A DNA stretch of 64,000 nt from Oxalobacteraceae bacterium (GTDB lineage Bacteria > Pseudomonadota > Gammaproteobacteria > Burkholderiales > Burkholderiaceae_D), in contig JAIZVZ010000005.1 of NCBI GenBank assembly GCA_021768485.1, forward strand, positions 1-64,000, in the 5' to 3' direction. This document shows positions 31,177 to 44,831 of this stretch, one piece after another (the first letter of the stretch is position 1; every line of letters starts with the position of its first letter). The notes below the pieces were generated by a model, which worked only from the letters and a program-made list of their open reading frames with translations, was not told the DNA's origin and ran no database searches. The position numbers were made by a program, and so were the translations under genes.

Positions 31177-32487
31177 TTAGGCCCGGGCCTTGATTGCTCG
31201 TCGGTGGCGAGGCGCGGCTGCCGGCGCCAGACGCCGGTGGCGCGCAAAAAAGGCCAGCATCAGCTGGCTGGCATCGGGGCCGACGCCGCTGTGGAACGGC
31301 AGGGCGCCGTCGCCGCCGCTCCAGGAATGGGCCAGGCCGGCAATTTTGACCACGCGCAGCAGCGCCTTGTTTTTCTGGCAGAAATCGCGCACCGAGTAGG
31401 CATGGGTACCACGTCGTCGGTTCGCCGCGCTGGCGGGCTTGTCGATGGCCGGCGCGCGGCGGTCGATGGCTGAGCGGTGCAGCAGCAGCACTTGCTGTTC
31501 GAGTTGCGACTGGTTAATCGGACGCACGACGGTATCGCCTTGCCCCTGGATCAGGATGGTCGGCATTGAGGGAAAATGCGGCGACCTGGCCAGCACTTCG
31601 GCGATGGCGCCGTGCATGCGCTGGCCGTCGCCTTGCTGCATGACCTGGTAGGCCCCCAGCGGGCTGCGTCCGGCGCCAAACAGCGGTGCCGAATGCAGGC
31701 CGATGGCGGCAATCAGCTGCGGATGGTTGAGGGCCACGATATGGGCCATGGCGGCACCGGCTGAAATGCCGCACAGATAGATGCGGCTACGGTCGATCGG
31801 CTGGCTGGCCGCCACTTTTTCGATGACGCCGACGATCAGACCGACATCGCCACCGCCGGCCTGGGTCGCGCTGTCATACCACTTCCAGCAGCGGTTCGGA
31901 TGGTTTTGCCGCGATTGCTGGGGATACAGGACGGCCCAGCCCTTTTTTTCGGCCAGATGATTCATGCGCGTGCCTTGCGCAAATTCGGTCGCCGTCTGTT
32001 CGCAGCCGTGCAGCATGACCAGCAGCGGTAGTCGGGCTGGCGAGCTGGCCGGCGTCATGGGCCAGGCCGCAGGCGGCGAGGCGGCCTTTTGCGGCAGATA
32101 CAAATAGTACGCCATGCGCCGTCCCGGCAAGGCGCCGCCGTCGGCCAGACTCGAATAATACGAGAGCAGCCATTTGCCGGGCGCGGCCGCGCCTGACGCC
32201 GCCGCTGTTGCCGGCGCTTTTGATGCGGCCTGATGGCGCTTGGCGCGCGGCGCGCTGGCTGCTGTTCTGATTGGCGTGCTAATTGGCGTACTTATTGGCG
32301 TACTTGTTGGCGTGCTCTTTGGTTTTGCTCGCGGCCGTTTCGGGCTTTTGCGTGGTGCGCTTTTCAGCGTGGCGCGCACGCCCGGTGCGGCGAATAGCGT
32401 GCTGAGCAAGGCCTTGGTTTGCCTTTGCTGCGCTTTTCCCGCGCTTTTCATGTTGCGTAAAAAAAGGCGCTGCAGTGTCTTTAGCAT
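31177..32487 (-). CDS. PHB depolymerase family esterase
   Basis: A 436-residue protein of the extracellular poly(3-hydroxybutyrate) depolymerase/feruloyl-esterase type. The catalytic domain has the oxyanion region LLVMLHGCEQTATEFAQGTR, the lipase box GISAGAAMAH (Ser), an Asp in GQGDTVVRP and His in GLAHSWSGGD. The first 110 residues are basic and low-complexity, with an STPI repeat (12-bp DNA repeat) and no obvious signal peptide, so the location is unclear. The actual substrate may be a short ester, not PHB. The phaC gene is 6 kb away and not co-transcribed. Confidence 0.8.
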   Translation of the reverse strand: MLKTLQRLFLRNMKSAGKAQQRQTKALLSTLFAAPGVRATLKSAPRKSPKRPRAKPKSTPTSTPISTPISTPIRTAASAPRAKRHQAASKAPATAAASGAAAPGKWLLSYYSSLADGGALPGRRMAYYLYLPQKAASPPAAWPMTPASSPARLPLLVMLHGCEQTATEFAQGTRMNHLAEKKGWAVLYPQQSRQNHPNRCWKWYDSATQAGGGDVGLIVGVIEKVAASQPIDRSRIYLCGISAGAAMAHIVALNHPQLIAAIGLHSAPLFGAGRSPLGAYQVMQQGDGQRMHGAIAEVLARSPHFPSMPTILIQGQGDTVVRPINQSQLEQQVLLLHRSAIDRRAPAIDKPASAANRRRGTHAYSVRDFCQKNKALLRVVKIAGLAHSWSGGDGALPFHSGVGPDASQLMLAFFARHRRLAPAAAPRHRRAIKARA

Positions 32488-32745: not shown

Positions 32746-33004
32746 GGCAATCTCCTGAGAATGCGCTGCCGAATGCAGTGCAGCACCCATGCTACGCGAT
32801 CGCCCGCTGCTTGAGCGTGTGCCAGCACACATAGATGAATAATGGGATTTTGAGCAACAAGGCTTGCCAATTCCATTGCAAAATAGTCAAGTATTCCCTT
32901 TATCTATGTTGCGATGCAGTAAAATCATTGCAGGCATTGCGCCTGTCATGTCGTGCGGCGCAAGTCTCGCAAAGTAGGCCCACCAGTTGACAGGGACGAT
33001 AACC

Positions 33005-34081
33005 ATGATCGCACTGAACAAGACGCGGGTGATGCAAATTGGCGTGACGCTGGCAGCGATCGTTGTTGCTGCAGGGCTAGCCTATCATTATTGGGGACGC
33101 AATACCGGCAATACCGGACTGGCTTCCGGCAACGGCCGGATCGAAGCCACCGAGATCGTGGTGGCCACGCGCGCCGGCGGCCGGGTCAAGGACATGCTGG
33201 TCAATGAAGGCGATTTCGTCAAGGCCGGCCAGGTGGTGGCGCGAATCGATTCGGATGCCTTGAACGCGCAATTGCGGCAAGCCCAATCGCAGGCGCAACA
33301 GGCGGCCAATGCGATCGACATTGCCCGCAGCCAGCACCGGCAATATCAGAGCGAAAAAGCGGCGTTGCATGCGACCGTGCTGCAGCGCCAGGCCGAACTC
33401 GAGGCCGCCGTCAGCCGCGAAGCACGATCGGCAAAACTGGTGGACGCCGGCGCCATCACGCGCCAGTTATCCGAAGACGATTTGACGCGCGTGGTCAGCG
33501 CCCGCGCTGCCCTGGTCGCTGCCAGGGCGCAGGAAGCGGCGGCGGACGCCGCCATCGCCACCGGCCGCGCGCAAGTGCTGGGCGCGCAATCGGCGCTGCA
33601 GGCGGCCAATGCGGCTGTGCAGCGCCTGCAGGCCGACCTGGCCGATAACGTGCTGGTGGCGCCGCGCGACGGCCGCATCCAGTACCGGGTGGCGCAAATG
33701 GGCGAGGTGGTGGCCGCCGGCGGCCGGGTCCTCAACATGATCGACCTGTCCGATGTCTACATGACGTTTTTTTTGCCGTCGGCCTCGGTGGGGCGGATCG
33801 CGCTCGGCTCGGAAGTGCGGCTGGTGCTCGATGCGGCGCCGAATCTGGTGATACCGGCGCGCGCCTCCTATATTGCCGATGTGGCCCAGTTCACACCGAA
33901 GACGGTTGAAACGGCGGTCGAACGCGAGAAATTGATGTTTCGCGTCAAGGCCCAAATCGATCCGCAATTGCTGCGTCAGCACCTCACGCAAGTGAAGACC
34001 GGTTTGCCCGGCGTGGCCTGGGTCAAGCTCGACGATAAGGCAGCATGGCCGGCCAGCCTGCCGGCGCGGATGGCAAAATGA
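33005..34081 (+). CDS. HlyD-family membrane fusion protein (YhiI-like)
   Basis: A 358-residue periplasmic adaptor anchored by one N-terminal helix ([20 protein letters not shown]). It has the lipoyl halves [20 protein letters not shown] and [20 protein letters not shown] separated by a coiled-coil hairpin rich in Ala, Gln and Arg. Such proteins link inner-membrane transporters to an outer-membrane channel. The start at 33005 has AGGGAC upstream; an in-frame TTG at 32987 is less likely. The stop overlaps the rbbA start (ATGA). No TolC-like gene is in the window. Confidence 0.88.
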
Positions 34082-36930
34082 GGCCCGGCCCGGCTGCGCG
34101 TCGGCTCGCATCGGCCGCCGCGACAGCGGTCCCGGCCGCCGCCTCGACCTCGACCTCGACCTCGACCGTGCCGCCGGCGGCGGCACTGGCTGCGCGGCTG
34201 CGCGGCGTCAGCCTGCATTACGGTAACACGGTCGCGCTCGACGGCATCGATCTCGAATTACGCAGCGGCAGCATGGTCGGCCTGATCGGCCCGGACGGGG
34301 TCGGCAAGTCGAGTCTGATGGCCTTGCTGGCAGGCGCCCGCAGCGTCCAGCAGGGGACTGTCGAAGCGCTCGGCGGCAATATGGCCGACGCCAGGCACCG
34401 GCGCCAGGTCTGTCCGCACATTGCCTATATGCCGCAAGGCCTCGGCAAAAACCTCTATCCGACCTTGTCGGTCGAGGAAAATCTGCAGTTCTTCGGCCGC
34501 CTGTTCGGCCATTCGGCGGCCGAGCGGCGCCGCCGCATCGACCGCCTGACCGCCGCCACCGGCTTGCATGCATTTCTGGCGCGGCCGGCCGGCAAGCTGT
34601 CGGGCGGCATGAAACAAAAACTCGGCCTGTGCTGCGCCCTGATCCACGATCCCGATCTGCTCATTCTCGACGAGCCGACCACCGGCGTCGATCCGCTGGC
34701 GCGCAAGCAGTTCTGGGATTTGATTGCCGGCATCCGCAGCGAGCGTCCCGGCATGACGGTGCTGGTGGCGACCGCCTATATGGACGAGGCCGAGCGCTTC
34801 GACTGGCTGGTGGCGATGGATGCCGGCAAAATCCTGGCCAGCGGCACGCCGCCCGAACTGCACCGGCGCACCGCCACGGCCTCGCTCGAAGAAGCCTTCA
34901 TCGCCCTCTTGCCGGACGAGCGCAAGCGCGGCCATCACGCGATCGTCATCCCGCCGCTGGTGCTGGGCGCCGATATGCCGATTGCCATCGAGGCGCGCGG
35001 CCTGACCATGCGTTTCGGCGATTTTACGGCCGTCGACCATGTCGACTTCCAGATCCGGCGCGGCGAGATTTTCGGCTTTCTCGGCTCCAACGGCTGCGGC
35101 AAGTCGACCACCATGAAGATGCTCACCGGCCTGCTGCCGGCGAGTTCCGGCCAGGCCTGGCTATTCGGCAGCGAGGTCGATTCCGGCAATCTGGCCACGC
35201 GGCGCCGGGTCGGCTATATGTCGCAGGGCTTTTCGCTGTATACCGAGTTGACGGTGCTGCAGAATCTGGTGCTGCATGCGCGCCTGTTTCATGTGGCACC
35301 GGCGCAGATTGCGCCGCGCGTGCAGCAAATGATGGCGCGCTTCGATCTCGAAGGCGTGCCGGACGCCTTGCCGGAGAGCTTGCCGTTGGGCATGCGGCAG
35401 CGCCTGTCGCTGGCGGTGGCGATGGTGCATGCGCCGGAATTGCTAATCCTTGACGAACCGACCTCGGGCGTCGATCCGGTGGCGCGCGACGACTTCTGGC
35501 AATTGATGATCGACCTGGCGCGCAAGGATCAGGTGACGATTTTCATCTCGACCCACTTCATGAACGAAGCCGAGCGCTGCGACCGCATTTCGCTCATGCA
35601 CGCCGGACGCGTGCTGGTCAGCGACACGCCGGCGGCGCTGGTCGAAAAACGCGGCGCGGCGACGCTCGAGCAAGCCTTTATCGGCTATCTGGAACAGGCC
35701 GGCGCCGAGGATGCGGCGGCGGTCACACCGGCGGCGGCAGCGGCCATCGCTGCCCCGGCCGTTACTGCTGATATGGCCGATAGCGCCCATGCGGTGCAGC
35801 GCCGCTTCAGCCTAGCCCGCATGTTCAGCTATTCGCGGCGCGAATTGCTGGAATTGCAGCGCGACCCGGTGCGCGGCTTGCTGGCCTTGCTCGGCAGCCT
35901 GATTTTGATGCTGATCATCGGCTACGGCATCAGCCTCGATGTCGACGATCTCAATTTCGCGGTGCTCGACCGCGACCAGAGCACGCTGAGCCGCGATTAC
36001 GCGCTGAACCTGGCCGGCTCGAGTTATTTTGTGCAGCGCCCGGCGCTGAACAGCTATGCCGATCTCGATCGGCGCATGCGCAATGGCGAACTGGTGCTGG
36101 CCATTGAAATTCCGCCCGGTTTCGGACGCGATGTCGAACGCGGTTCGGCGGTGCAGGTCGGGGCCTGGATCGATGGCGCCATGCCCTCGCGCGCCGAAAC
36201 CGTCCAGGGTTATGTGCAGGGCATGCATGCCAACTGGCTGGCCCGCCATACGCGCCAATTGCTGGGGGCGGCGGCACTGACCGGTAATGCCAGCGTCGAG
36301 ACCCGCTTTCGCTACAACCCCGATGTCCTGAGCTTGCCGGCCATGGTGCCGGCCGTGATTCCGATCCTGCTGTTGATGATTCCGGCGATGCTGACGGCGC
36401 TGGCGGTGGTGCGCGAAAAAGAGCTCGGTTCCATCATCAATCTGTATGTGACGCCGGTGACGCGCACCGAATTTTTGATCGGCAAGCAGCTGCCGTATAT
36501 TTTTTTGGGGATGCTCAATTTTCTCTTGATGACGCTGCTGGCGGTCACCGTGTTCCGGGTGCCGGTCAGCGGCAGCTTTCCGGCGCTGGCGCTGGCGGCG
36601 CTGCTGTTCGTGATGTTTTCGACCGGTTTCGGCTTGTTCGCCTCGACTTTCACGCGCAGCCAGATCGCCGCCATGTTTTTCGCCATTATCGGCACGCTGC
36701 TGCCGGCGATCCAGTTCGCCGGCATGCTCAATCCCGTCTCCTCGCTCGAGGGCGTGGGGAAAATGGTCGGTTCGGTCTATCCGGCCACGTATTTTCTGGC
36801 GATCAGCCGCGGCATTTTCAACAAGGCTCTGGGACTGGCCGACCTGTATGCCGATTACTGGCCGATTCTGGCGGCGGCGCTGTTCATCACCGCGCTCTCG
36901 ATCGCGCTATTGAAAAAACAGGAGCGCTGA
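34078..36930 (+). CDS. rbbA: RbbA-type ABC transporter: two ATPase domains fused to an ABC-2 permease
   Basis: A 950-residue fusion. ATPase 1 has GPDGVGKSS, signature LSGGMKQK and Walker [14 protein letters not shown]. ATPase 2 has GSNGCGKST, a degenerate signature (LPLGMRQR) and [13 protein letters not shown]. The C-terminal part, starting near [20 protein letters not shown], is an ABC-2 permease with a large periplasmic loop and about six membrane helices. E. coli RbbA was described as ribosome-associated, but the operon with HlyD and YhhJ-like genes fits an exporter. The first 40 residues are low-complexity (STSTSTST from a 6-bp repeat). Confidence 0.9.
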
Positions 36931-36931
36931 G

Positions 36932-38056
36932 ATGGTCCATCTGCTCAATATCTACCGGCTCGGCGTCAAGGAATTGTGGAGCCTGCTGCGCGATCCGATC
37001 ATGCTGGTGCTGGTGGCCTATACTTTCACGCTGCAAGTGTACGCAGCCGCCACCGCCGCTCCGGAATCGCTGCACAAGGCGCCGATTGCGATCGTCGATG
37101 AAGACGGCTCGCCGCTGTCGGCGCGCATCGTCGGTGCTTTTTATCCGCCGCACTTTCTGGTGCCGGCCATGGTGCCGCTGGCGGCGGTCGATGCCGGCCT
37201 CGACGCCGGCACCTATACGTTCGGCCTGAACATTCCGCCCAATTTCCAGCGCGATGTGCTGGCCGGGCGGGCCCCGGCGATACAGCTGAATGTCGATGCC
37301 ACGCGCATGATCCAGGCTTTTTCAGGCAGCAGCTACGTGCAGCAGATCGTGATGGGCGAGGTCAACGAGTTCGTGCAGCGCCACCGCGTCAACACGGTCT
37401 CTACGGTAGAGCTGGTGCTGCGCGCGCGCTTCAATCCGACGCTGACTGCCAGCTGGTTCGGCTCGGTCATGGAAATCATCAATTCGGTCACGCTGCTGTC
37501 GATCATCCTGACCGGCGCGGCGCTGATCCGCGAGCGCGAGCACGGGACCATCGAGCATTTGCTGGTGATGCCGGTGACGCCGGGCGAGATCATGCTGGCC
37601 AAGATCTGGTCGATGGGGCTGGTGGTCTTGCTGGCGGCGGCCGGCTCGCTGCTGGCCGTGGTGCAGGGCGCGCTGCGGGTGCCGATCGAAGGCTCGATCA
37701 TGCTGTTTCTGGCCATTGCGGCGCTGCATCTGTTTGCGACCACCTCGATGGGCATTTACCTGGCGACGCTGGCGCGCACCATGCCGCAATTCGGCCTGCT
37801 GATGCTGTTGACGATGCTGCCGCTGCAGCTGCTGTCGGGGGCCTCGACGCCGCGCCAGAGCATGCCGGCCTTCGTGCAATCGGCCATGCTGGCGGCGCCG
37901 ACCACGCATTTCGTGGCCGCAGCCCAGGCCATCCTGTATCGCGGCGCCGGCCTCGAGGTCGTCTGGCCGCAGATGCTGGCCCTGATCGCCATCGGCGGCG
38001 TGTTGTTCACCTTGTCGATGCTGCGCTTTCGGAAAACGATCAGCAGCATGACATAG
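36932..38056 (+). CDS. ABC-2 type permease (YhhJ-like)
   Basis: A 374-residue inner-membrane protein. TM1 is near the start (DPIMLVLVAYTFTLQVYAAA), followed by a periplasmic domain of about 150 residues and then five or six helices in the C-terminal half. The conserved segment EREHGTIEHLLVMPVTPGEI is diagnostic for this family, as is MLPLQLLSGASTPRQSMP. It starts one base after the rbbA stop codon region, with GGAG just upstream. With the HlyD and RbbA genes it completes a three-gene export system. The substrate is unknown. Confidence 0.88.
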   Translation: MVHLLNIYRLGVKELWSLLRDPIMLVLVAYTFTLQVYAAATAAPESLHKAPIAIVDEDGSPLSARIVGAFYPPHFLVPAMVPLAAVDAGLDAGTYTFGLNIPPNFQRDVLAGRAPAIQLNVDATRMIQAFSGSSYVQQIVMGEVNEFVQRHRVNTVSTVELVLRARFNPTLTASWFGSVMEIINSVTLLSIILTGAALIREREHGTIEHLLVMPVTPGEIMLAKIWSMGLVVLLAAAGSLLAVVQGALRVPIEGSIMLFLAIAALHLFATTSMGIYLATLARTMPQFGLLMLLTMLPLQLLSGASTPRQSMPAFVQSAMLAAPTTHFVAAAQAILYRGAGLEVVWPQMLALIAIGGVLFTLSMLRFRKTISSMT

Positions 38057-38135: not shown

Positions 38136-39938
38136 TCAGGTGCCGCGCACGTACTGGCCGGGGGCGTCGTCGAGCGTGCCGGCGGCATCGAGCACCGGCG
38201 GCGCGATGCGCTTGCTGCTCGAATGCGCGCTGAGCCACTGCTGCCAGTGCGGCCACCACGAACCCTCGGTCGAATGCGCCGTATGCAGCCACTCGTCGGC
38301 ATTCAGATAGGCCGAGTTGGCGGGACGGTGGGCGGCGCTGCGGTAGCTGCGCCGCGCGTGGCCAGGTTCGGAGACGATGCCGGCATTGTGGCCGCCCGAG
38401 GCCAGCACGAAATCGATCTCGGCGTCGGCCAGCAGGTGGATTTTGTAGACCGAGCGCCACGGCGATACGTGATCGCGCTCGGTGCCGAGCACGAACAGCG
38501 GCGCACGAATATTGCTCACCGAGATAGCCTTGCCGTCGACGCAATAGCGGCCTTCGGACAGATCGTTATGCAGGAACAGGCTGGTCAGATACTGGCTGTG
38601 CATGCGGTAGGGCAGGCGCGTGGCATCGGCATTCCAAGCCATCAAATCGTTCGGGATGCTGCGTTTGCCGAGCAGGTATTGGCGCATATTGCGCGACCAG
38701 ATCAGATCGCGTGAATTGAGCAGTTCGAAAGAGCCGGCCATTTGCGAGCCTTCCAGATAACCTTTGCGCCACATCATCGCATCCAGCATGGCCAGCTCGC
38801 TATGGTCGATGAATAAACCGAGTTCGCCGGGATCGGCAAAGTCGGTCTGCGCCGCCAGCAGGCTGACGCTTTTGAGCGGCGCGGCACAGGCATGCACGCC
38901 GCCATCGATGGCGGCGGCGGCGATGGCCAGCAGGGTGCCGCCGAGGCAATAGCCGACCGTATGCACGGGCGCCGCCTCGCAGCGCAGCGCCACCTGGTCG
39001 AGCACGTCGAACAGGCCGCGCGCCAGATAGTCGCCCATGCCGAGGTCGCGGTCCTTGGCATCGGGGTTGCGCCACGAGATGATGAATACCGTATGCCCCT
39101 GTTCGACCAGATAGCGCACCATCGAATTGTGCGGCGAGAGGTCGAGAATGTAATACTTCATGATCCAGGACGGCACGATCAGGACCGGTTCGCGATAGAC
39201 ATCGGCTGTTTGCGGTGTGTACTGGATCAGTTCGACCAGGTCGTTTTTATACACCACCTTGCCGGGCGTGAGCGCGACATTGACGCCGACCGTATAGGGA
39301 TTGTCGACCGGCGCCGCGGGCGCGCCGCGCGCCGTCGCCTGCATCCGGGCCAGGTCTTCGAGCAGATGGTTCCAGCCGCTCAGCACGCTTTGCCCCTTGC
39401 TTTCGCGGGCGGCGCGCCAGACCTCGGGATTGGTGGCGCCGAAATTGGACGGCGAAAACATGTCGAGCCACTGGCGGGCCGCGAAATTGACGATATGGGC
39501 GTGATGCGGTTCGACCCCGCGCACGCCGGTGGTGGCTTTTTCCCAGAATTGCTGGGTTTGCACAAAGCTCTGGGCAAACAGATTGAATGGCCAGTTGGCC
39601 CAGGCGGCATCGGTAAAGCGCGTGTCGCCGCTCTTGGCGGCGGCATCCTCGCCGGCGGCAATCAGGGGCTTGGCGGTCAGCGCGGCCTGCGCCGTTTCCG
39701 CCCACAGCGCGGCCTGCTTGCCGGGCGCGGCCGCCAGATGCAAAAACCAGTCAAGGTAAGCCAGCGTCATGCCGATCGGCGAGATGCCGCCCGTCATTTT
39801 GGCGATGCTGCTATGCAGTCGCATGTCGAGCGGATTTTGATCGACGCCATCGGCGCTGAGGTAGCAGGCAAGCGGATTGGGCACAAGGGGCGCGCTGGCG
39901 GACGGCGGCGGAAGCGAATGCATGTCAGCAATTTTCAT
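38136..39938 (-). CDS. phaC: Poly(3-hydroxyalkanoate) synthase, class I type
   Basis: A 600-residue polymerase that joins hydroxyacyl-CoA units into storage polyester. The N-terminal domain contains FNLFAQSFVQTQQFWEKATT. The alpha/beta core has the lipase-like box GYCLGG with nucleophile C331, an Asp in LFVLGTERDHVSPWRS and His in SGGHNAGIV. I prefer the ATG at 39938 because AAGGA is correctly spaced for it; an ATG two codons upstream directly abuts that element. No phaA, phaB or phasin gene is adjacent. Instead it is divergent from fabI-maoC/pta-ackA, and a perfect FNR-type site lies in its promoter region. Confidence 0.92.
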   Translation of the reverse strand: MKIADMHSLPPPSASAPLVPNPLACYLSADGVDQNPLDMRLHSSIAKMTGGISPIGMTLAYLDWFLHLAAAPGKQAALWAETAQAALTAKPLIAAGEDAAAKSGDTRFTDAAWANWPFNLFAQSFVQTQQFWEKATTGVRGVEPHHAHIVNFAARQWLDMFSPSNFGATNPEVWRAARESKGQSVLSGWNHLLEDLARMQATARGAPAAPVDNPYTVGVNVALTPGKVVYKNDLVELIQYTPQTADVYREPVLIVPSWIMKYYILDLSPHNSMVRYLVEQGHTVFIISWRNPDAKDRDLGMGDYLARGLFDVLDQVALRCEAAPVHTVGYCLGGTLLAIAAAAIDGGVHACAAPLKSVSLLAAQTDFADPGELGLFIDHSELAMLDAMMWRKGYLEGSQMAGSFELLNSRDLIWSRNMRQYLLGKRSIPNDLMAWNADATRLPYRMHSQYLTSLFLHNDLSEGRYCVDGKAISVSNIRAPLFVLGTERDHVSPWRSVYKIHLLADAEIDFVLASGGHNAGIVSEPGHARRSYRSAAHRPANSAYLNADEWLHTAHSTEGSWWPHWQQWLSAHSSSKRIAPPVLDAAGTLDDAPGQYVRGT

Positions 39939-39964
39939 GTTCATTCCTTGGCAATTTGTCAGCC

Positions 39965-39970
39965 ATTATT
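39965..39970 (-). promoter_or_regulatory. Possible -10 of phaC
   Basis: AATAAT on the minus strand. It would put the FNR-type site at about -42, close to the -41.5 position typical of FNR-activated promoters. Confidence 0.4.
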
Positions 39971-39993
39971 GCCGCCGCACATGAATGCTGTAT

Positions 39994-40007
39994 TTGATCT
40001 AGATCAA
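39994..40007. promoter_or_regulatory. FNR/Anr-type box between phaC and fabI
   Basis: TTGATCTAGATCAA is a perfect match to TTGAT-N4-ATCAA, the binding site of FNR/Anr/Dnr oxygen- or NO-responsive activators. Its centre is about 62 bp upstream of phaC and 300 bp upstream of fabI. Confidence 0.75.
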
Positions 40008-40299
40008 TTACAACGGTGGGGTGGCTCTTTAGACTGCACTGCAGCATAATCGAGTCTTCACTACCAATCTCGGGCCTGGACTGACGGTCGCGATCGCGCC
40101 GCCCGCTTTGTCCATCTTAGATGCAACATACCAGATGTATTAAGGAATGTCTTGGGTTTGAGTCTGCTGCGGCAGGTTCTTGAGGCCGGGTGCAGGGCAT
40201 GCATCCGGAATGTGCCGGTCATCCGGCAGACGCCGAGTGTTGCGTCAGCGGCCGCCAGAGTCCGCAACGCGCGCCATTGATTGTGAATGGGATGCTGCC
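40008..40299. other. Leader region of the fabI operon
   Basis: About 290 bp without a gene. It must carry the promoter of fabI-maoC/pta-ackA. I find no clear -35/-10 pair, only an AT-richer patch around 40120-40160. Confidence 0.35.
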
Positions 40300-41064
40300 A
40301 TGACTTCCCCCTTTTCCCTTGCCGGCAAGCGCGGCCTGATTCTTGGCCTGGCCAATGAGCACAGTATTGCCTACGGTTGCGCCCACGCGGCCAAAGAGGC
40401 CGGCGCCCACTTGGTGTTGTCGTGCGTCAATGAAAAAGCATTGCCGTTTGCCATGCCGGCGGCCCTGGGCTTGCCCTTGATTGCCTGCGATGTCGAGCGC
40501 GAAGGCGCGCTTGCGCAACTGGTCGACAGTGCGGTAGCGACGTTGGGCGGTCTCGATTTCGTCATTCACTCGATCGCCTGGGCGCCGCTGGCCGATTTGC
40601 GCGGACGCGTGGTCGACAGTTCCAGCGCCGGGTTTTCACGGGCGATGAATATTTCCTGTCATTCTTTTGCGCAATTGGCCAAATTGTGCGAGCCGCACAT
40701 GAGCCAGGGCGGCAGCCTGATGACGATGAGCTATCTGGGCGCCGATGATGCTGTGCCGCATTATGGCCTGATGGGGCCGGTCAAGGCCGCGCTCGAATCG
40801 CTGGTGCGTTATCTGGCGCTCGAATTGGGACCGCGCAATATCCGCGTGCATGCCTTGTCGCCGGGACCGATCCCGACCCGCGCGGCGTCGGGCCTGGCCG
40901 AATTCGACAGTCTGATGCTGCATGCGCGTCAGATTTCGCCTTTGCAGCGCCTGGTTACTCTGGAGGAAGTTGGCCGCCTGGCAGCTTTTCTGGCCAGCGA
41001 CGGTGCCAGCGGCATGACAGGCCAAACCATTTATGTCGACGCCGGCTACCATGTGGTAGGCTGA
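40300..41064 (+). CDS. fabI: Enoyl-ACP reductase FabI (NADH)
   Basis: A 254-residue short-chain dehydrogenase family enzyme that reduces enoyl-ACP in fatty-acid synthesis. The nucleotide site is GLILGLANEHSIAYGCA. The catalytic region has the two tyrosines in SYLGADDAVPHYGLMGPVK (Y145, Y155) and the lysine K162. The end is TGQTIYVDAGYHVVG. Being encoded beside phaC and Pta/AckA and not with fatty-acid genes, it may be a second FabI devoted to redox balance or PHA precursor supply under low oxygen. The start has only a weak ribosome-binding site. Confidence 0.9.
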   Translation: MTSPFSLAGKRGLILGLANEHSIAYGCAHAAKEAGAHLVLSCVNEKALPFAMPAALGLPLIACDVEREGALAQLVDSAVATLGGLDFVIHSIAWAPLADLRGRVVDSSSAGFSRAMNISCHSFAQLAKLCEPHMSQGGSLMTMSYLGADDAVPHYGLMGPVKAALESLVRYLALELGPRNIRVHALSPGPIPTRAASGLAEFDSLMLHARQISPLQRLVTLEEVGRLAAFLASDGASGMTGQTIYVDAGYHVVG

Positions 41065-41089
41065 AATGAATCAATCGAACGAGGACGCC

Positions 41090-42508
41090 ATGACCGAGCA
41101 GAACGATGACGAGCAGCTAGAGACAATAGAGAACGTGACTTATGACGAGTTGTCGATAGGACAGACGGCGCGCCAGACCCGCACACTCGGGCGCGACGAT
41201 ATCGCGGCCTTTGCCGCCGTCTCGGGCGATGTCAATCCGGCCCATCTCGATGCCGAATATGCCGACAAGACTTTATTTCATGGCGTGATCGCGCATGGCA
41301 TGTGGGGCGCGGCGCTCATTTCCAAATTGCTCGGCACCAGCCTGCCGGGACCGGGCACGATTTATCTGGCGCAGACGCTGCGCTTTCTCAAGCCCGTGCG
41401 CATCGGCGACACGCTGCGCATCACGGCCACCGTGGTGACGAAGGACGATTTGAAAAAGCATGTCCAGCTCGAATGCGAAATCAAGAATCAGACCGGGGCG
41501 CTGGTATTGTCGGGCACGGCGACCGTGATTGCGCCGATGGAAAAGGTCAAGCGTCTGCGCGCCAGCGTGCCGCAACTGCATCTGTTCGATCCGGCAGCGC
41601 GTTTTGCCGCGCTGCTCGAACGCGTGCGCGGGCTGGCCGCGGTGCGTTGCGCGGTCGTGCATCCGTGCGATCAGCAATCGCTGAGCGGGGCGCTTGATGC
41701 GGCAAGACACGGCCTGATCGTGCCGGTACTGATTGCGCCGCTGGCCAAGCTGGAGGCGACGGCGCTGGCGGCCGGCCTTTCGCTCGACGGCATCGAGACG
41801 GTCGATGTGCCGCACAGCCATGCCGCCGCCCTGCGCGCAGCTGGCATGGCCGCTGCGCACGAGGTCGAGATCATCATGAAGGGCAGCCTGCATACCGATG
41901 AAATGATGCAAGCCATCGTTGCCCTGCCGGCGCTGCGCACCAAGCGCCGCCTGTCGCATGTCTATCATTTCGATGTGCCGATGTACGACAAGACCTTGCT
42001 GCTGTCCGATTGCGCGCTCAACATCGCGCCGACCCTGCTGGAAAAGGCCGATATCGTGCAAAATGCGATCGACCTCGCGCATGCGCTCGGCAATCCCGAA
42101 CCGAAAGTGGCGCTGCTGTCGGCGGTCGAAACCGTCACTCCCAAGATCGCCTCGACCATCGATGCCGCCGCGCTGTGCAAGATGGCCGATCGCGGCCAGA
42201 TCACGGGCGCCTTGCTCGATGGCCCGCTGGCCTTCGATAACGCCATTTCCAAGGAATCGGCACGCATCAAGGGCATTGTCTCGCCGGTGGCCGGACAGGC
42301 CGACATCCTGATCGTGCCCGACCTCGAGTCGGGCAATATGCTGGGCAAGCAACTCGAATATCTGGCCGGTGCCGCGACCTGCGGCGTGGTGATGGGGGCG
42401 ACGCTGCCGATTGCGCTGACCAGCCGCGCCGACGACGCCAACTCGCGCATTGCATCGGCGGCGCTGGCCGTGCTGATGGCGCACCGCTACCGCTCGGTGC
42501 CGCCGTGA
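41090..42508 (+). CDS. MaoC-like enoyl-CoA hydratase fused to phosphate acetyltransferase
   Basis: A 472-residue two-domain protein. Residues about 10-150 are a hot-dog MaoC/PhaJ-type hydratase with the catalytic motif DVNPAHLDAEYADKT and FHGVIAHGMWGAAL. Residues about 165-472 are a phosphate acetyl/butyryltransferase (MKGSLHTDEMMQAIV, TRRLSHVYHF-like RRLSHVYHFDVP, LLDGPLAFDNAIS). It could make (R)-3-hydroxyacyl-CoA for PhaC and acetyl phosphate for AckA. The ATG at 41090 is chosen because GAGG lies 5 nt before it; an ATG at 41066 is the alternative. It overlaps ackA by 4 bp. Confidence 0.88.
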   Translation: MTEQNDDEQLETIENVTYDELSIGQTARQTRTLGRDDIAAFAAVSGDVNPAHLDAEYADKTLFHGVIAHGMWGAALISKLLGTSLPGPGTIYLAQTLRFLKPVRIGDTLRITATVVTKDDLKKHVQLECEIKNQTGALVLSGTATVIAPMEKVKRLRASVPQLHLFDPAARFAALLERVRGLAAVRCAVVHPCDQQSLSGALDAARHGLIVPVLIAPLAKLEATALAAGLSLDGIETVDVPHSHAAALRAAGMAAAHEVEIIMKGSLHTDEMMQAIVALPALRTKRRLSHVYHFDVPMYDKTLLLSDCALNIAPTLLEKADIVQNAIDLAHALGNPEPKVALLSAVETVTPKIASTIDAAALCKMADRGQITGALLDGPLAFDNAISKESARIKGIVSPVAGQADILIVPDLESGNMLGKQLEYLAGAATCGVVMGATLPIALTSRADDANSRIASAALAVLMAHRYRSVPP

Positions 42509-43707
42509 GCGGGCCGCAAGACGCCATTCTGGCGGTCAATGCCGGTTCGTCCTCGCTCAAGTTCGCGCTGTATCCGGTGCATGGGCTCGATGTCGATGCC
42601 GCCCGCCTGACCTGCGTGGTCGATGGCCTGGAGCCGGCCGGGGCGCCGCGCATTTGCGTGCGCGGCGATGGCGAGGACCGGCAGACGCAGCTCGAACCTG
42701 CGCCCGGCGATGTGTTCGATCATGCGCTCGAAGCGTTGCGCGTGGTGCTAGAAAATCATGCCAAGACCTTGCGCGTGGCGGCCATTGCCCATCGCATCGT
42801 CCACGGCGGCCGGCATTTTTTCGATTCGGTCGTCATCGACGATGCCGCCATGGCGTATCTCGACAGCCTGGGCACGCTGGCGCCCCTGCATCAGCCGCAC
42901 AATCTGGCCGGGGTGCGCGCCTGCCAGCGCGCCTATCCCGACTTATTGCAGGTCGGCTGTTTCGATACCGGCTTTCACGCTACGCTGCCGATCATGGAGC
43001 AGCTGTTTGCCTTGCCGAAGGTCTTGCGCCTGGCCGGTATCCGGCGCTATGGTTTTCACGGCCTGTCTTACCGTTATGTGATGGCCCGCCTGTTCGAACA
43101 TTCGGCGCGCGCCGGGCAGAAAGTGGTGGTTTCGCATCTGGGCAATGGCGCCAGCGCCTGCGCCATGCTCGATGGTAAAAGCGTCGCCAGCAGCATGGGA
43201 TTTTCGGCGCTCGACGGCTTGATGATGGGCAGCCGCTGCGGCGCACTCGATGCCGGCGTTGTCTTGCATCTGATGCGCCAGGGATGGAGCCGCGAAAAAA
43301 TCGAACACGCGCTGTACCGCGAATCGGGTTTGCTGGGCGTGTCCGGCCTGTCGGCCGATATGCGCACGCTGCGCGCCAGCAGCAGTCCCGATGCGGCGCA
43401 GGCGATCGAGCTGTTCGTGCATCGCCTGATCAAGGAGTGCGGCACGCTGACGGCCTGCCTCGGCGGGCTCGATCTGCTCGCTTTTACCGGCGGCATTGGC
43501 GAGCACGATAGCGCTACGCGCCAGAGTGCCTGCGACCGGCTCCATTATCTGGGGGTCGAGATCGATGCCGAGCTCAATCGCGCGGCCGTCGGCGACGTCG
43601 TCAGTCCGATCCATAGCAAGCAAAGCAAGGTCGAGGTATGGGTGGTGCCGACCGACGAGGGGCGGGTCGCTGCCGGCGATGCGGCGCGGCTGTACGCCAC
43701 TGTGTAA
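42505..43707 (+). CDS. ackA: Acetate kinase
   Basis: A 400-residue enzyme that makes ATP and acetate from acetyl phosphate. Motifs are LAVNAGSSSLKFALYPVHG at the start, HRIVHGGRHFFDS, FDTGFHATLP, RRYGFHGLSYRYV, SHLGNGASACAM, SMGFSALDGLMMGSRCGALD and FTGGIGEHDSATR. It starts with GTG overlapping the stop of the MaoC-Pta gene (GTGA). Pta plus AckA gives substrate-level ATP formation, useful when respiration is limited, in line with the FNR-type site in this cluster. Confidence 0.95.
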   Translation: MSGPQDAILAVNAGSSSLKFALYPVHGLDVDAARLTCVVDGLEPAGAPRICVRGDGEDRQTQLEPAPGDVFDHALEALRVVLENHAKTLRVAAIAHRIVHGGRHFFDSVVIDDAAMAYLDSLGTLAPLHQPHNLAGVRACQRAYPDLLQVGCFDTGFHATLPIMEQLFALPKVLRLAGIRRYGFHGLSYRYVMARLFEHSARAGQKVVVSHLGNGASACAMLDGKSVASSMGFSALDGLMMGSRCGALDAGVVLHLMRQGWSREKIEHALYRESGLLGVSGLSADMRTLRASSSPDAAQAIELFVHRLIKECGTLTACLGGLDLLAFTGGIGEHDSATRQSACDRLHYLGVEIDAELNRAAVGDVVSPIHSKQSKVEVWVVPTDEGRVAAGDAARLYATV

Positions 43708-43754: not shown

Positions 43755-44552
43755 TCAGTCCGGTGCGCGTTCCAGCAATGCGACCTCGACTTGCATCGCC
43801 GCACTGTCTGGCGGCGGCCCGAACTGGGTAAAGATCGCGACATTGGCGGCGTCGTGGCCGTAGGCGACCGTCACCCGGCCGCCACGCGGCGTTTTTTGCG
43901 TGGCATCGAAGGTATACCAGCGGTCGCCGACATAGGCTTCGAACCAGGCGTGCAAATCCATCGGCTGCAAACCGTGCAGATAGCCGACGACCATGCGGGC
44001 CGGAATGCACAGGGCGCGGCACAAGGCGATCCCCAGATGCGCAAAATCGCGGCATACGCCCTCGCGTCGCTGGTTGACGTCGACCGCCGACATATGGTCG
44101 AACTCGCAACCGGGATTGAGGCGTATCGTGCGTTCGATCCAGGCGGCGATGCAGGCGACCTGATCGTAACCCGGGGCGACGTCGCGCACGATGTCGCTGG
44201 CCATGTCAAGGAAGCGTTCTGATTCGCAATAACGGCTTGGCAATAGATACGTCAATACCGTATCGGGCAATAGCGGCACTTCAATAAATGGCGCGCCGGG
44301 CGCCAGCGCGATCGTGTCCTCGGTCATCACGTCGGACGAGGTGCGGATCGAAAATGCCCCGGGCGGGGCGATCAGGCGCTGGCACAGATTGCCGTAGCCA
44401 TCGGTATATTCGAGCACCGGCACGCTCGGCTGTATCGTATAGCTTTCGCGGGCCACCCATTGCTGGACGCCGCTGCGCGGACGCAGCATGAGGATGAACG
44501 GGGTCGGCGTGGCGATGGTAAAGCTCAAATGACAACTGGTGCGTAACCACAT
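43755..44552 (-). CDS. Transglutaminase-like cysteine peptidase family protein
   Basis: A 265-residue protein with a beta-rich N-terminal domain (bacterial transglutaminase N-terminal type) and a transglutaminase core. The catalytic triad is visible: C167 in [20 protein letters not shown], His in [14 protein letters not shown] and Asp in [13 protein letters not shown]. Such proteins are usually cytoplasmic proteases or amidases of unknown substrate. The start at 44552 is set by the domain. Translation further upstream would run through the 11-bp repeat array and give a spurious hydrophobic repeat leader. Confidence 0.82.
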
Positions 44553-44592
44553 GGGGACTTTCCGGAGAGGGCAATAACAAGAAAAAGACTGG

Positions 44593-44680
44593 GCACAGAA
44601 AAAGCACAGAAAAAGCACAGAAAAAGCACAGAAAAAGCACAGAAAAAGCACAGAAAAAGCACAGAAAAAGCACAGGGAAA
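44593..44680. repeat. 11-bp tandem array of phased A-tracts
   Basis: Seven perfect head-to-tail copies of GCACAGAAAAA from 44593, then one diverged copy (GCACAGGGAAA). A5 tracts recur every 11 bp, close to the helical repeat, so the segment should be bent. It lies 40-130 bp upstream of the transglutaminase-like gene. Confidence 0.97.
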
Positions 44681-44831
44681 GCATGCCAACCCGCATGCAA
44701 ATCCGCATGGATAAGAGGCCGTCTGAGGCCGCCTGAGGTCGCCTGCAGGTCGGCCATGCGCGCCCGGCCTCGATTGCCGGCCGCACATCGCCGGCATAAG
44801 GTTTTTTATTGCCGCTGCTTATTCCGGCGAT

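Follow-up and report, generated by a model that had tools for sequence, protein, structure and literature searches.

A perfect FNR-type box between divergent phaC and fabI as the probable operator of a two-way class II promoter pair in an Oxalobacteraceae genome

The window analysed here, i.e., the whole stretch of 64,000 nucleotides from contig JAIZVZ010000005.1 of an Oxalobacteraceae bacterium, carries a gene for a polyhydroxyalkanoate (PHA) synthase, phaC, that is divergent from three almost touching plus-strand genes, fabI, a phaJ/pta fusion and ackA. A perfect FNR-type palindrome is situated in the gap between phaC and fabI, flanked by a −10-like hexamer on each side. The locus is composed of the following features:

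38136..39938, minus strand: phaC, class I-like PHA synthase outside the canonical clade (TIGR01838, E = 3e-149, below the cut-off; GYCLGGT lipase-like box in the translation)
39965..39970, minus strand: AATAAT, predicted −10 of the phaC promoter (ATTATT on the plus strand), box centre at ~ −42.5
39994..40007, no strand: FNR/ANR/DNR-type box TTGATCTAGATCAA, an exact TTGAT-N4-ATCAA and perfect 14-base palindrome with its centre at 40000.5
40030..40035, plus strand: TAGACT, predicted −10 of the divergent fabI promoter, box centre at −41.5, predicted start ~40042
40036..40299, plus strand: stretch from the predicted fabI −10 to the fabI start (leader ~258 nt), without the exporter block seen here in relatives
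40300..41064, plus strand: fabI-type enoyl reductase (PRK07533 family; NF005717, above the cut-off)
41066..42508, plus strand: bifunctional enoyl-CoA hydratase (PhaJ/MaoC type)–phosphate acetyltransferase (NF006045, above the cut-off)
42505..43707, plus strand: ackA, acetate/propionate kinase (TIGR00016, above the cut-off)

For phaC, the ATG at 39938 is the preferred start, as it suits the spacing of an AAGGA motif read from the sequence, and the ATG at 39944 is possible; with either, the predicted leader is short (~14–20 nt). In a quick tree of 80 distinct PhaC rows, which did not include Hsero_2405 and comprised a canonical clade of 14 synthases and 5 rows not assessable for the box, the window PhaC falls outside the canonical clade. 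Two further PhaC copies are encoded in the same genome, one outside this clade and with no box upstream (L162), the other inside it (L167). On the opposite side of the gap, the idea that the fabI leader holds an RNA element was rejected, since an Rfam search gave no match up to E 0.1; the length of this leader means that fabI could have another promoter. The wider neighbourhood includes an HlyD–RbbA–permease exporter (32987–38056) convergent with phaC, whose ~29–50% identity to the exporter lying between box and fabI in relatives indicates that it is not a simple transfer of their block. An extracellular-type PHB depolymerase (31177–32487; NF050058, above the cut-off) is encoded a few genes from phaC, and a minus-strand ORF (43755–44786) has no NCBIfam match and a repetitive N-terminal stretch, perhaps a 5′ tandem DNA repeat (44500–44790).

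An earlier note on this DNA had described a perfect FNR-type box at about −42 of a predicted phaC promoter. A motif scan of the window confirmed the exact TTGAT-N4-ATCAA at 39994–40007, and the distance is right as a prediction: AATAAT begins 30.5 bp from the box centre (minus strand, 39970–39965) and, with the last base of the −10 set at −7, extrapolates to a phaC start at ~39958. On the plus strand, TAGACT begins 29.5 bp from the centre. The −10 spacing on both sides, −42.5 for phaC and −41.5 for fabI relative to predicted starts, matches the class II distance of FNR-type activators and is conserved in relatives. Judged by −10 spacing alone, one box lies midway between two divergent promoters at this distance. 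Scoring of 700 hexamer positions on both strands of the phaC–fabI gap with an assumed −10 weight matrix returned TAGACT as the single best hexamer and AATAAT or better at three positions, with imperfect matches to the −10 consensus (4/6 and 5/6, respectively); for a single-side −10 at class II distance in the window, 0.4 to 1.8% of shuffles score as well. A plain sigma-70 promoter for the gap was rejected, as a scan of 39900–40320 detected none, a result compatible with an activator replacing the −35 element and equally with a promoterless region.

Within the window, the box statistics are weak, because 8 of 100 shuffles are as high as the 3 matches found with at most one mismatch (1.06 expected). 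Across the whole genome (4.17 Mb, 241 contigs), 16 perfect TTGATN4ATCAA sites were detected vs none for a reversed-motif control, and 45 vs 5 for TTGAYN4RTCAA. Only the window box, one of these 16 perfect sites, has a good −10 on both sides at class II distance. Ten proteins flanking the perfect boxes were searched, of which one had no match; among others, they comprise an OmpW porin, two MCPs, a PAS-GGDEF protein, a TauE-like exporter and a response regulator. This set resembles the Herbaspirillum seropedicae Fnr1 regulon, with ompW1, MCPs and phaC2-fabI, and with fnr1 itself in Group III (PMC5934665).

HTH_Crp_2 matches occur at 11 places in the genome, 9 of them over the cut-off. The look-up of fnr/anr proposed in the earlier note retrieved two Fnr proteins, L016 and L022, both of which align with solved FNR over most of their length. 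By the residue roles of E. coli FNR, both possess all four cluster cysteines (the CxxCx5C cluster and the CEIPF cysteine) and an E..SR recognition helix; L022 is preceded by a perfect box (L013). A Dnr-like protein, L019, for which DNR is nearest among solved structures, also has a perfect box upstream (L004), and NirK is present above the cut-off; a search of the genome for NirS did not find it. With Fnr, the Dnr-like protein and NirK all present, oxygen and NO are not separable from the genome as the signal for the box. It is unlikely that the box is mainly a Dnr site and that the promoter pair answers nitrite/NO and not oxygen itself. Such a role would fit the boxed Dnr-like gene, the presence of NirK and the single box shared by Dnr and FnrL in Dinoroseobacter shibae (PMC5398030); against it stand the missing NirS and the related H. 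seropedicae operon, which is reported to be bound by Fnr1 (PMC5934665).

To describe conservation on the phaC side, a family set of 392 genomes was used, 64 of which gave a PhaC match with an E value no higher than 1e-192. A TTGAYN4RTCAA-type box scoring at least 9/10 lies upstream of phaC in 63 of these 64, and 61 of the 63 also show a phaC-side −10 score of at least 2.7 bits, a cut chosen after the scores were known and applied, where several boxes were present, to the one with the best phaC-side −10. Within 420 bp, the box was found in 61 of 62 genomes, against a shuffle mean of 3.28 and a maximum of 8; the 62-genome sets leave out two genomes with two boxes each (G264 and G367) and take the nearer box in G326. 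Outside the canonical clade, 61 Burkholderiales PhaC loci could be assessed; 28 of them carry a box scoring at least 9/10 and the other 33 lack one, where 200 dinucleotide shuffles gave a mean of 1.07 and a maximum of 5; the canonical-clade loci have a box in 0 of 14. Across the 80 of 185 fabI-related loci, and likewise in the family genomes, the box is found repeatedly ahead of phaC or, in the case of L135, L136 and L038, ahead of fabI.

The spacing between box and −10 is likewise conserved. In 16 family rows (15 loci), a −10 at offset 22–24 from the box scores 4.08, which none of 2000 shuffles reached; a single row, L089, has its best −10 elsewhere, at offset 52. These rows include the fabI promoter L038 and two TTGAC-N4-GTCAA sites, and a 32-row version had the same outcome. 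The first form of the test covered 28 promoters with boxes at most 130 bp from the extrapolated phaC start, leaving out L081, L108 and L111; its 10-row family set also omitted L089 and L038, and the omitted family rows were restored in the 16-row repeat. L084, with its −10 at offset 53, has a PhaC that the tree shows as identical to one from a family genome; it was counted with the other group. The offset of 24 for the phaC-side −10 is common to the window, L061 and three loci of genus g40. The window and L061 both lack the exporter block and have the box, its flanks and both −10s in common; their −10 hexamers are identical at 10 of 12 positions, against 31 of 100 in the rest of the stretch. 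Five g40 genomes carry the identical 14-mer in this position, as does one g19 genome, which has no second −10. A chance palindrome without function would agree with the lack of a clear excess in the window at one mismatch, but a chance origin was rejected by the genome-wide counts, the shuffles and the family conservation; with box and spacing conserved and the same 14-mer retained in place in the g40 genomes, this explanation is exceedingly improbable.

The earlier note had extended regulation by the box only possibly to the divergent operon; the predicted second −10 at class II distance, recurrent in relatives, makes this likely. Among the 62 family genomes, 31 have a divergent TolC, fabI or Pta neighbour, and 30 of these show −10s on both sides of the box vs 0 of the 31 others (Fisher value 1.4e-16, which overstates independence because the genomes are related). 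The one exception, G388, has a divergent pta but no good second −10. The far-side −10 taken alone is present in 30 of the 31 module-neighbour genomes vs 2, 2, 1, 1, 0 and 0 of the 31 others at 1, 2, 3, 4, 5 and 5.5 bits, respectively, and the both-sided contrast holds within genera, with 9/9 vs 0/6 in g40 and 1/1 vs 0/12 in g6. The far-side hexamer in relatives is TACACT or TAGACT at offset 22–24. In five further genomes, the divergent gene encodes the PhaJ/Pta protein. L189 (G264) and L196 (G367) have the window's arrangement of phaC next to and divergent from fabI, but carry two boxes each, separated by 112 and 122 bp. A perfectly symmetric box was considered as a mark of two-way use, being found in 17 of 30 both-sided sites vs 1 of 31 others, and was dropped as evidence, since distinct sequences gave 3/11 vs 1/15 (p 0.28).

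These contrasts bear on whether the box serves phaC alone, with the fabI-pta-ackA promoter situated further downstream and the second −10 a product of chance. Across Burkholderiales the box mostly accompanies phaC, the predicted fabI leader is long, and of the 25 family fabI loci whose 1.5-kb flanks lack phaC, none shows a box scoring 9/10 or better at a distance of up to 400 bp from fabI. The use of these boxless loci as an argument against fabI control was rejected on the basis of the 8 of 25 that were fetched at length, because in those fabI sits downstream of an exporter block of the same direction and the box lies ~7 kb off, beside phaC. In all 8, ~7 kb holding hlyD-, ABC- and permease-type genes separates phaC from the divergent fabI, and the box adjoins phaC with TACACT at offset 23–24 on its far side. 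Gene order in the block was followed in detail for L238, one of the 8, where a TolC-like gene (read by eye), HlyD, an ABC protein, two permeases and fabI stand close together and in one direction. Control of phaC alone is quite improbable, given that TAGACT, the best −10-like hexamer in the gap, lies at the exact class II offset and that the second −10 accompanies the module neighbours as described. The box is probably a two-way operator with a class II promoter of FNR type on each side, one for phaC and one for fabI-phaJ/pta-ackA. Points that weigh against this reading are the imperfect −10s, the long fabI leader, the boxless fabI loci, the missing second −10 of G388, the paired boxes of G264 and G367, and the absence of a box at L162 and at 33 of the PhaC loci across Burkholderiales.

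H. seropedicae belongs to the same family as the host, Oxalobacteraceae. In this species, ChIP-seq and RNA-seq place dksA-phaC2-fabI-Hsero_2407 under direct Fnr1 control (PMC5934665), and a triple fnr mutant shows a 100-fold drop in phaC2 transcripts and loses about half of its late-log PHB at low aeration (PMC5934665, PMC5862806). A PHA synthase beside fabI is common to both loci; however, the H. seropedicae genes are written as one operon, whereas in the window phaC is divergent from fabI-pta-ackA with one box between them, and a one-direction phaC-fabI operon of that type is not found there. By gene order, the window PhaC may be orthologous to PhaC2; no Herbaspirillum label occurs among 80 of the 185 matched fabI-related loci. 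The link between box and phaC claimed in the earlier note is thus backed by the regulators of the genome, the family conservation of box and class II −10, and the Fnr1 data from H. seropedicae (PMC5934665). It is very unlikely that the box represses at low oxygen instead of activating. A few H. seropedicae Fnr targets are repressed (5 in Group I and 2 in Group II; PMC5934665), which would favour repression; against it, phaC2 drops without Fnr (PMC5934665, PMC5862806), and a repressor site would not require the class II spacing that is conserved here.

Comparable elements are described elsewhere. In D. shibae, one Fnr/Dnr box is centred 39.5 and 41.5 bp upstream of the two divergent starts of nirS and nosR2; both reporters require DnrD and are lower without FnrL, and nirS reporter activity is lost when the site is mutated (PMC5398030). 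That system concerns denitrification genes in another bacterial class, with starts and reporters measured (PMC5398030), whereas the geometry of the window is predicted from sequence. In Pseudomonas extremaustralis, Anr is needed for phaC and phaR expression (Tribelli 2010, cited in the review PMC9049629), so that an FNR-family oxygen regulator is required for PHB genes much as proposed for the window; the organism is different, and no bidirectional site appears in the passages of the review that were consulted (PMC9049629). Genes listed for a low-oxygen-activated locus of Burkholderia cenocepacia include M0296 (phbB) and M0298, a putative phosphate acetyl/butyryl transferase, which are up in later isolates; its gene content differs from that of the window, and the term FNR is absent from the main text of the report (PMC6127331). 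Each element is known, but an FNR box shared in both directions by phaC and fabI/pta, i.e., one operator for a PHA synthase and an acetate/ATP module that is kept while neighbours change, was not found in the literature searched, mainly titles and beginnings of abstracts.

We infer that at low oxygen an Fnr dimer whose [4Fe-4S] cluster is intact would bind the palindrome and aid RNA polymerase at either −10, ~30 bp from the box centre, with AATAAT directing transcription towards phaC and TAGACT towards fabI, phaJ/pta and ackA. Low oxygen would then co-induce PhaC as a polymer sink for reducing power and the acetyl-phosphate/acetate kinase route to ATP, and a Dnr-like protein may bring an NO signal to the same box. 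One low-oxygen operator would in this way link the PHA synthase with the acetate/ATP module, and the second PHA synthase gains a testable role in low-oxygen redox balancing alongside acetyl-phosphate turnover. As a tentative and rather doubtful extension, the shared symmetric Fnr site could be a mutually exclusive switch, in which neighbour genes are exchanged (exporter-fabI-pta, fabI-pta-ackA or pta first) and the two-way operator is kept. With class II distance on both sides and one polymerase per bound dimer, cells would split their low-oxygen response between the phaC sink and the exporter/fabI/acetate-ATP branch.

The promoters collected here, with one box for two operons, two boxes, one-sided arrangements, and class II vs ~ −71.5 positions, form a natural series ready for asking how one activator dimer serves two polymerases. 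In ten loci (L062, L064, L070, L074, L084, L089, L093, L096, L101 and L104), phaC and fabI have the same direction and a −10-like hexamer lies at offset 51–55 upstream of phaC; the box would sit at ~ −71.5, a class I position, removed from the class II site by about three turns of the helix. For this offset 51–55 group (17 rows), the best offset score was reached by 4 of 500 shuffles. In L102, L109, L120, L126 and L134 (Comamonas and an Acidovorax MAG), GAGAAT is found at offset 41 in 5/5, a possible third geometry at ~ −60. L135 and L136 belong to one Rhodoferax MAG with two copies of fabI-phaC-pta-ackA, each preceded by a 9/10 box (TTGAC-N4-ATCAA) before fabI.
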